This document shows, in pieces, positions 19,192-22,410 of a DNA stretch of 64,000 bases (position 1 is the stretch's first letter; every line of letters starts with the position of its first letter). The notes beneath the pieces are model-generated. The model was not told the DNA's origin. It was given only the letters and a program-made list of their open reading frames with translations, and ran no database searches. The DNA is from Chloroflexota bacterium (lineage in GTDB: Bacteria > Chloroflexota > Anaerolineae > B4-G1 > DUEL01): contig JADBJJ010000023.1 of the NCBI GenBank assembly GCA_014874475.1, positions 1-64,000 of the forward strand, given 5' to 3'. The position numbers and the translations under genes are program-made.

Positions 19192-21129
19192 CTACCGCAC
19201 CGGCGCGGGACTTGGGGGCATCTCCAGCGCCCGCCCCCGTCGGGACGGGGAGGGCTTCTCCGCCTTCTCTCGGGTTGCCGGGGAGGGTGTGCCCCGGTCC
19301 CCTTTCTCGGGCAGAGGGCGTCCCTCCAGAACGGCGACAAATTCCTCCGCCTCCAGCGTTTCCACTTCCAGCAGCCGTTGAGCGACGGCGTCCAATTGCT
19401 CCCGGTGCTCCTCCAGTACCTGCCGGGCCCGCCGGTAGGCCGTGTGGATGATCTGCCGTACCTCTTCGTCTATCTGCTGGGCGACGGCCTCGCTGTAATC
19501 CCGTTGCTCCCCGATCTCCTTGCCCAGGAAGACCAGTTCTTCTTTCTGACCGAAGGTCATCGGGCCCAGTTTCTCGCTCATCCCGTAGCGGGTGACCATT
19601 GCGCGAGCCAGTTCTGTCACCTGCTCCAGGTCGTTGGCGGCGCCAGTGGTAGCCTCGCCGAAGACCAGTTCTTCCGCCGCGCGGCCCCCCAGGGCAAAGG
19701 CCAATTGGTCCTCAAACTTGGAGCGGCTGACGACGGTACGGTCCTCCTCGGGCAGAGAAATCGTATAACCCGCCGCCATCCCCCGGGCGACGATGGAGAC
19801 CTTCTGCACCGGGTCGCACTTGGGCAGATAATGGGCCACCAGCGCGTGACCGGCCTCGTGGTAGGCGATGATGCGGCGCTCCTCCTCGGAGAGGAGGCGG
19901 CTCTTGCGCTCCGGCCCGGCGATGACCCGCTCTATGGCCTCTTTGAACTCGGCCATTCCGATGGTCCGCTTGTTCCGGCGGGCCGCCAGAATGGCTGCCT
20001 CGTTCACCAGGTTGGCCAGGTCCGCACCGACAAAACCCGGCGTGGCTTTGGCCAGCGCGGCTACGTCCACGTCATCCGCCAGCGGTTTGCCTCGGGTGTG
20101 GACCTTCAGGATGGCCTCGCGCCCCCGCATATCGGGCCGGTCCAGCACCACCCGGCGGTCAAACCGGCCCGGCCGCAACAGCGCCGGGTCCAAAATGTCC
20201 GGGCGGTTGGTGGCCGCCATCACGATGACGTTGGTATCGGTGTCAAACCCGTCCATCTCCACCAGAATCTGGTTCAGGGTCTGCTCCCGCTCATCGTGGG
20301 AGCCGCCCAGACCGGCCCCCCGGTGGCGTCCCACTGCGTCAATCTCATCCAGGAAGATGATGCAAGGGGAATGCCGTTTGGCCTGATCAAAGAGGTCCCG
20401 CACCCGGCTGGCGCCCACGCCGACGAACATCTCCACGAACTCGGAACCGGACATACTGAAGAAGGGGACCCCCGCTTCTCCAGCCACCGCCTTGGCCAGA
20501 AGCGTCTTGCCGGTGCCCGGAGCGCCCATCAGCAGCACCCCTTTGGGGATACGAGCGCCGACCTGGATGAACTTCTGGGGCTCCCGGAGGAACTCCACCA
20601 CCTCCCGCAGTTCCTCCTTCGCCTCGTCCACTCCGGCGACATCGTCAAAGGTCACAGACGGCTTGTCGCTGGTATAGAGCCGGGCCCGACTTTTCCCAAA
20701 GGAGAGGGCCTGGTTGTTCACCCCCTGGAACTGGCGCAGGAAGAAGAAAGCGGCGAGCAGGAAAATGACCATCACCAGGATCGTCCCACCGGTGCTGAAG
20801 AGCGCCGTCCAATCCATCGCCTCCGCGACTTCTATCTGCACATTGGCCAGTTGTTCATCGGAGACCCCCAGGGCCTTCAACTGTTCGGGAAGGGTGGACT
20901 CGGACTCTTTCAGCGACCGCAGTTGCTGCCCGGTTTCCAGGTCTGCTACCAGACGATCTCCGGTAACGGTAATCCGCAAAACACGGCCGGCCTTTGCCTC
21001 CTCCGCAACCCGGCTGATAGGTACCAGGTCCGGTGTGGAGGAGCGGTTGAGAAGGTTGTAGGTCAGGAAGAAGACCGCCGCCAGCAACAGCAAGGTAATG
21101 AATGTACTGCCCCGAAACCGCGAATTCAC
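19192..21129 (-). CDS. ftsH: ATP-dependent zinc metalloprotease FtsH
   Basis: 645 aa. It degrades membrane and unstable cytosolic proteins as a hexamer. Membrane helices at ~10-27 and ~113-131 flank a periplasm-side domain. The AAA module has Walker A GAPGTGKT (202-209), Walker B IIFLDE (257-262) and the second region of homology [20 protein letters not shown]. The M41 zinc site is HEAGH (424-428), with the third ligand in the NDLEQVT region. The tail after ~600 is short and ends in a Pro/Arg-rich segment. A TATAAT promoter lies just upstream. Confidence 0.97.
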
Positions 21130-21218: not shown

Positions 21219-22274
21219 CTACGGACCCAGATGGGCAAGAATTTCCGCCACCGAAGGGCGGTCGGCGGGGTCTTGGCCCACGTGGGACCAGCGAATGGCT
21301 CCGTCCTTTAGCACAAAGACCGCCGGTGCCGCTAACCCGTCTCCGAAAAGATTGTACACCCCGTACATCTCAGCCGCCCGATGGTCCAGGTCTGCCAGCA
21401 TAGGGAACGGGGCCCCAATGGACGCCCGAACTCCCTCCACGGCCTCCGGCGCTGCCACCGCCAGAGCGACCACTTCCGCCCCTCGGGCCTGGAACTCTGC
21501 GTATCGGTCTCGCAACTCCACGAGTTGCGTTCGGTCCGGCCCTCAGCCGCACCGCTGGAAAAAGACCAGGACCACCGGCCCCTGCCTCATCAGGTCGGAT
21601 AAGGTCAGCGCACCACCCCCTGCCCGCTCCAGAGTGAAATCCGGTGCCTGGACCACCTCGGGTGTGGGAGTAACCGCCGGGGCAGGAAACTGGAACGAGA
21701 CCCGCATCTGTTCCCGGTAAATGACCACCCGAGCCCGGGACCGCTCCCGAGTCAGCCATTCCGGAATGGACACCCCCTGGGCCTCCAGCGCGGTCTGAGC
21801 CCGCTGGACCACCAAGAAGCGGGCAACAGCCCGCTCCAGGGAGTCCCGGCCCAATCCGACCTGGCCCAGCGTGGTGACCACCTGCTCATCGGAGACGCCC
21901 CATGCCTGCTCCAGGGCCTCAATCTGCGCCTCCACCTCATCCCGGATCGGCGCCGGCTGGGGCGGCGCCGCGCGCAGGACCAGCACCTCGTTGATGAGCC
22001 GGTCCAGTGTCTCTTCCGGAGAGGGGGCCGGGACACCCGCCAGGCGGCTCATTGCCCAATCCAGCAGCACCGCCTCCGCCCAGAAGTTCCGCCCGATGGG
22101 CTGGCCATCCACCAGGGCCACCGGCGGGTCCGCAGGGGACGGAGTCGCAGAGGGAACCGGTGGGGCCATCCGGGAAGCGCCCTGCCCCAGTATCCCGATA
22201 ACCAGAATGAGCATCAGCAGGGCGACCCCTCCGGTCGCCAGAACCGATATCCAGCGCGTTGTACTGATCCTCAT
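21219..22274 (-). CDS. Predicted selenoprotein: membrane-anchored SurA_N-like/peroxiredoxin fusion with in-frame UGA (Sec244)
   Basis: 351 codons if TGA at 21545-21543 is read as selenocysteine. Residues ~10-28 form a membrane anchor; ~45-165 resemble the N-terminal helical domain of SurA/PpiC chaperones (VALVDGQPIGRNFWAEAVLL, ETLDRLINEVLVLRA). From APDFTLE at ~210 a peroxiredoxin/AhpC-TSA fold begins: GPVVLVFFQRCG, then U, then GPDRTQLVELRDRYAEFQ and GAEVVALAVAA, VYNLFGDGLAAPAVFVLKDG. The UGA aligns with the first Cys of the CPxCREQL motif of such proteins; Asp stands where the second Cys would be. Both sides are in the same frame without indel. A hairpin fit for a SECIS follows. The ATG has AAGGGGGG very close; a GTG nine codons earlier is possible. 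The alternative is a nonsense-mutated gene. Confidence 0.72.
21511..21529 (-). promoter_or_regulatory. Candidate bacterial SECIS element
   Basis: Perfect 8-bp stem CGCAACUC/GAGUUGCG with loop GUG, beginning 13 bases and looping 21 bases after the UGA codon. Known bacterial SECIS hairpins place an apical loop with G in its first two positions roughly 16-37 nt after UGA; this fits. An outer GGGCC/GGCCC pairing (21538-21542 with 21485-21489) could extend it. Confidence 0.6.
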
Positions 22275-22410
22275 CTCCCCCCTTCGGATGAAGGATACCA
22301 CAATCTGGGCGAGACGTCAATCTTCCGCAAGGTGCGGGTGGGTCCGACATAATCGGCCGTCCTTCAGGTGACCATCATCGGCCTGCCCGTTATGTATTTT
22401 GGCGCGCTTG

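Follow-up and report, generated by a model that had tools for sequence, protein, structure and literature searches.

Selenoproteins of the AhpC-TSA family are already known in TxxU, UxxC, UxxU, UGC and UxxS forms, as listed in the available part of the review PMC13188914. Among the curated families, the SelL-related proteins (NF040769), peroxiredoxin-like thiol:disulfide oxidoreductases of PF00578 with a UxxC or UxxU motif, come closest to the protein described here, which is encoded in a 64,000-nucleotide stretch of a Chloroflexota genome (hereafter the window). NF040769 is the top NCBIfam match of the window protein, 19 of 19 orthologues match it as well, Sec opens the redox motif, and the source genome encodes a stand-alone homologue with the motif UPFC. 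Compared to the SelL-related proteins, however, the window protein scores 67.2 bits, which is under the curated cut-off of 120 bits, it carries an Asp in place of the second Cys of UxxC/UxxU and has a Cys two residues before Sec (U-2), and it is fused to a putatively membrane-anchored SurA-like domain. Selenoperoxiredoxins with the motif PxxxTxxU share the Pfam family AhpC-TSA and the fold, whereas the window protein is devoid of PxxxTxx and has its Sec off the peroxidatic position. Similar to the extracytoplasmic thiol-disulfide oxidoreductases ResA and TlpA, the window protein appears to be a membrane-anchored redoxin, and its Sec aligns with their nucleophilic Cys. It differs from them in having CxU instead of CxxC and in being AhpC-TSA-like, with ResA proper reaching 37 bits versus a cut-off of 170. 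Folding factors of the SurA/PrsA type resemble its N-terminal chaperone-like domain, but the window protein lacks their parvulin PPIase domain and has a Sec redoxin in its place. The Cys-Sec spacing, finally, is that of the CxU selenoproteins named in PMC13188914 as far as its text is available (rhodanese-like form 3, UshA-like, FtrB and thioredoxin-like Sec.1), which belong to other protein families; a CxU AhpC-TSA protein does not occur in the accessible part of its selenoprotein table. Neither a SurA-like fusion nor a CxU form of AhpC-TSA selenoproteins was found in the accessible portions of the reviews and other literature searched, and no description of the combination of membrane anchor, SurA-like domain and C-x-U Sec redoxin was found there either.

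Reading frame and domain architecture

The gene forms a single minus-strand frame running from ATG 22274 to TAG 21221-21219, with TGA 21545-21543 as the sole interruption, just as an earlier reading of the letters of the window (the sequence-only reading) had described it. The ATG at 22274 is the likely start; an in-frame GTG, at 22301, is a possible alternative. The smooth AhpC/TSA similarity across the TGA that had been noticed at that time is confirmed by Pfam AhpC-TSA (PF00578), which covers aa 209-329 without a break at 84.1 bits (gathering score 26) and places the protein in this superfamily. Since the architecture of the window protein is caught by no NCBIfam model at its cut-off, ordinary gene callers would be expected to cut the gene in two. 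The sequence-only reading had likewise foreseen a split into a truncated chaperone-like gene and a fragment. Hereby, the chaperone-like character of the upstream part holds, but this part is a SurA-like domain, probably membrane-anchored, of the same protein and not a separate gene.

Table 1. Positions of the selenoprotein gene and its elements in the window
Feature	Position	Strand	Basis
Complete selenoprotein gene, 351 aa, Sec = residue 244	21219..22274	-	Frame read through TGA; orthologues
N-terminal membrane-spanning helix (putative), aa 6-30, followed by Pro/Thr/Ser-rich linker	22185..22259	-	Hydropathy; structure model
SurA-like N-terminal domain, aa 51-193, without PPIase domain	21696..22124	-	Pfam in orthologues; domain model
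AhpC-TSA/redoxin domain, thioredoxin fold, aa 209-349	21228..21650	-	Pfam PF00578; structure model
Codon of Cys242, the protein's only cysteine, two residues before Sec	21549..21551	-	Alignment; Cys census
In-frame UGA read as Sec244	21543..21545	-	22 genomes with TGA at this site; L026 and L030 have TGC, L025 has Cys
SECIS hairpin (putative) with 8-bp stem; its GUG loop lies 21 nt downstream of UGA	21511..21529	-	Fit to published bacterial model; covariation

The hydrophobic N-terminal helix is present in 19 of 19 aligned orthologues (hydropathy 2.4-3.1), in which it is usually preceded by Arg or Lys, and it also appears in the structure model. According to the positive-inside rule, the protein would thus be anchored in the membrane with its remainder outside the cytoplasm. 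The domain that follows the linker gives a match to Pfam SurA_N_3 (PF13624) in ten of the 19 orthologues (3.7e-8 at best), but not in the window protein itself. Its model (pLDDT 94.1) has SurA as each of the first eleven PDB matches, the best SurA fold match having E 1.9e-3, probability 1.00 and TM 0.64, and SurA is also among the weak profile matches. In the homologues L015, L023 and L029 the SurA-like domain is absent; thus the two domains are separable. The homologues of family f6 (L025, L026 and L030) consist of three domains, namely a SurA-like domain, a TlpA-like CxxC redoxin and a second redoxin whose Sec-site residue is Cys (CGxC). The model of the redoxin domain of the window protein matches Bcp4, AhpE and ResA with TMt values of 0.82-0.86, and in both fold and sequence searches the best matches are Bcp/AhpE peroxidases.

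Downstream of the gene, after 89 bases, begins ftsH (19192-21129, minus strand). The same gene order was seen in one close relative only (L004, same contig as L037), and the remaining neighbourhoods of the gene that were compared, some of them short, gave no match to ftsH. A conserved operon with ftsH is therefore not claimed.

Decoding of the in-frame UGA

The source genome (3.0 Mb, 97.7% complete; window on contig C21) has Thermoflexus/Thermoflexales assemblies as its nearest named relatives. All four components of the Sec machinery whose presence the sequence-only reading had proposed to check, selA, selB, selD and tRNA-Sec, are encoded in it. SelA (464 bits) lies on the contig of the window itself, SelB reaches 310 bits and thereby exceeds the 242-bit cut-off, SelD reaches 328 bits, and the tRNA-Sec scores 72 bits with the Rfam model and has the anticodon UCA according to ARAGORN. 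The Rfam tRNA-Sec and SelB models also give background matches in Sec-less control genomes; hereby, true tRNA-Sec matches lie above 60 bits compared to a background of about 46-54 bits, and true SelB matches above the 242-bit cut-off. The selD gene (locus L059, G000:C1:121458-122381, minus strand) also encodes a selenoprotein: its in-frame TGA lies at SCAGUAGKL, the known Sec site of SelD, and serves as an internal positive control.

Homologues were searched in 149 genomes, and in 23 of them the redoxin domain of the protein, or of its closest homologues, is interrupted by a TGA. The site is identical in 22 of these 23, which span five families, while the TGA is slightly shifted in the remaining one, L023. 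At this locus (L023:1501-1959) the shift goes along with a 3-base change in spacing, the sequence reads GGUQPERQL with no Cys at U-2, and the hairpin, the same as elsewhere, follows 18 nt after the UGA; the displacement may be genuine or may stem from a slip in the assembly. Cys or TGA at this site had been put forward earlier as the pattern to look for, and apart from the 22 genomes with TGA at the identical site we indeed find Cys, namely in the three f6 homologues L025, L026 and L030. Hereby, TGC was read directly in L026 and L030, and the genome of L030 is without SelB over the cut-off. Downstream of the TGA, dN/dS amounts to 0.10-0.26 in six species pairs and is below the upstream value in five of the six, which indicates that purifying selection persists past the TGA.

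The distribution of the gene follows that of SelB. It is present in 20 of 24 genomes of f1 and f2, the two Sec-decoding families of the order, almost all of them with a SelB match above the cut-off; the four f1/f2 genomes with no match to the gene are 76-90% complete. Among the 24 genomes of family f3, by comparison, none reaches the SelB cut-off and none has a TGA copy of the gene (20/24 versus 0/24, Fisher 1.3e-9), the f3 matches to the query being restricted to its N-terminal part or to other redoxins. The nucleotide pattern for CGUGPD occurs in 2 of 400 sampled Chloroflexota genomes, both from the family of the window's source genome. These data also bear on the possibility that UGA is reassigned, or read through as a standard amino acid, in this lineage. 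The frame is open under any code in which TGA is a sense codon, but TGA also serves as terminator in these genomes, for instance closing the frame of several orthologues immediately behind the conserved C-terminus. The Sec machinery is complete, gene presence follows SelB, and the homologues have Cys and not Trp at the site, which together renders such a reassignment highly improbable.

The hairpin consists of a 5' arm CGCAACUC (21529-21522), the loop GUG (21521-21519) and a 3' arm GAGUUGCG (21518-21511), and thus has exactly the perfect 8-bp stem and GUG loop reported before; the 21 nt separate the UGA from the loop. The bacterial SECIS model given in the available text of PMC13188914, a 2026 review, calls for a loop of 3-9 nt, a stem of 4-16 bp, a distance of 16-37 nt from the UGA, a G within the first two loop positions and an MFE of at most -7.5 kcal/mol, and with an MFE of -10.1 kcal/mol the window hairpin agrees with this model in every respect as far as the available text states it. 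Several orthologues have lost the uppermost pair of the stem, resulting in a 5-nt loop with G still in second position; in isolation, these hairpins reach about -6.6 kcal/mol, slightly weaker than the limit of -7.5 kcal/mol in the available text of PMC13188914. In the window sequence alone the hairpin is only moderately unusual: a perfectly paired stem of 8 or more bp, whose loop starts with G and is suitably spaced, follows 0.5% of the 1659 TGA triplets of the GC-rich window, and the 76-nt hairpin region folds no better than its shuffles (z = -0.94). Because the fold energy of this region alone is not significant, covariation was used as the test. Among 21 distinct TGA sequences, compensatory double changes occur at four of eight stem pairs (G-C to C-G, A-U to G-C, C-G to A-U and C-G to G-C), 89.3% of the stem cells are paired compared to 22-46% with the partner slid, and the covariation score exceeds those of all 500 shuffles. 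In addition, identical residues in sequence pairs use the same codon with a frequency of 0.69 at codons +1 to +12 versus 0.44 elsewhere, and the most constrained of 117 codon windows begins inside the hairpin. The Cys (TGC) homologues L026 and L030 have not kept the hairpin. The case for a SECIS element is thus one of conservation and covariation in relatives, as judged from their sequences.

A nonsense mutation of a TGC or TGT codon, the rival named in the sequence-only reading, would imply a stop of recent origin in a decaying frame. The in-frame stop itself is all that speaks for it, and it is refuted by conservation, namely by a TGA shared among 22 genomes of five families, by strong purifying selection past the TGA and by the covarying hairpin, so that its probability appears lower still than that of a reassigned UGA. 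Although metagenome assemblies may contain errors, a TGA created by sequencing or assembly is refuted by its presence in the separate assemblies of 23 species and is the least credible alternative. Apart from the machinery, the homologues, the hairpin and the persisting selection, all of which strongly support selenocysteine, three kinds of counter-evidence named earlier were examined: a genome devoid of selA, selB and selC, a site without conserved Cys or Sec, and related strains with TGC and no hairpin. None was encountered, TGC being present in no close relative, and the Sec reading thus stands. Judged by these comparisons, TGA 21545-21543 is almost certainly decoded as Sec.

Active site and proposed function

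The arrangement C-G-U, with Cys at U-2, is found in 18 of 19 aligned orthologues. In the alignment with ResA, the two Cys of CEPC are matched by Sec and Asp247, respectively, and in the model Sec directly precedes a helix, as the nucleophiles of thioredoxin folds do. The assignment as a peroxiredoxin with TGA at the catalytic Cys, made in the sequence-only reading, could thus not be upheld, since Sec takes the place of the leading Cys in a CxxC of the ResA type. The distant homologues L012, L021 and L029 have UGPC where the window protein has UGPD. Because the second Cys is replaced by Asp in the Thermoflexus group and a Cys is gained at U-2, the protein is, by its sequence relationships, best described as derived from the UxxC (SelL-related) redoxins, with C-x-U as its motif.

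Based on Sec decoding, a two-domain make-up and a C-G-U active-site layout, all of them established at the level of sequence, we consider it somewhat probable that the protein is a selenol/thiol oxidoreductase that is anchored in the membrane, faces outward and is coupled to a chaperone domain. In the proposed mechanism, SelB and Sec-tRNA(UCA) would decode UGA 21545-21543, guided by the hairpin 21 nt downstream, and the N-terminal helix would anchor the protein so that the rest faces the outside of the cytoplasm. The SurA-like domain may then hold unfolded or exported polypeptides close to the redoxin domain, whose presumed redox centre is C242-G-U244, formed by the only Cys and the only Sec of the chain. 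Sec244, at the place of the nucleophilic first Cys of ResA/SelL-type proteins, would probably attack disulfides or, alternatively, oxidised thiols and peroxides. The intermediate could then be resolved by Cys242 as a Cys-Gly-Sec selenenylsulfide. Since a C-G-U ring is small and strained, the resolving partner could also be another protein. The topology, the coupling of the two domains and the disulfide exchange or repair of exported proteins are presumed features of this model. Should it apply, hot-spring Chloroflexota, namely Thermoflexus-type bacteria, would appear to use selenium for redox chemistry beyond the cytoplasm.

The main rival is that the same Sec protein is an extracytoplasmic peroxidase, in which Sec would reduce H2O2 or alkyl hydroperoxides and Cys242 would resolve the selenenic acid. 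The protein is an AhpC-TSA family member with Bcp4 and AhpE as best fold matches, and Sec often raises peroxidase rates. Against this, the sequence FFQRCGUGPD does not contain the peroxiredoxin motif PxxxTxxC/U, an Arg is found three residues before the nucleophile where peroxiredoxins have the peroxide-binding Thr/Ser, and the alignment with Bcp puts Asp247 on the peroxidatic Cys and Sec on a Ser at Cp-3. A peroxidase role is hence possible but rather unlikely. Thiol/selenol-disulfide exchange is favoured because Sec is in the nucleophile position of ResA/SelL and a chaperone domain is attached.

As a more specific and tentative version of the oxidoreductase model, the protein might act as a selenium-dependent membrane-anchored foldase, in which the SurA-like domain presents exported polypeptides to Cys-Gly-Sec and disulfides are reshuffled or repaired at high temperature. 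Short C-G-C peptides have isomerase-like redox properties. A foldase of this kind would exert a PDI- or DsbC-like function through a C-G-U tripeptide, with the resolving Cys moved from U+3 to U-2. The family offers a natural active-site series of CGxC, UGPC and CGUGPD, which allows the effects of Sec and of a relocated resolving Cys to be tested directly. The stand-alone UPFC protein, the second Sec redoxin of the source genome and SelL-related, is encoded at G000:C11:115493-115921 (minus strand, locus L041). Its TGA is conserved in eleven other homologues read from relatives, and one or two of the stand-alone homologues vary in the middle residues of the motif.
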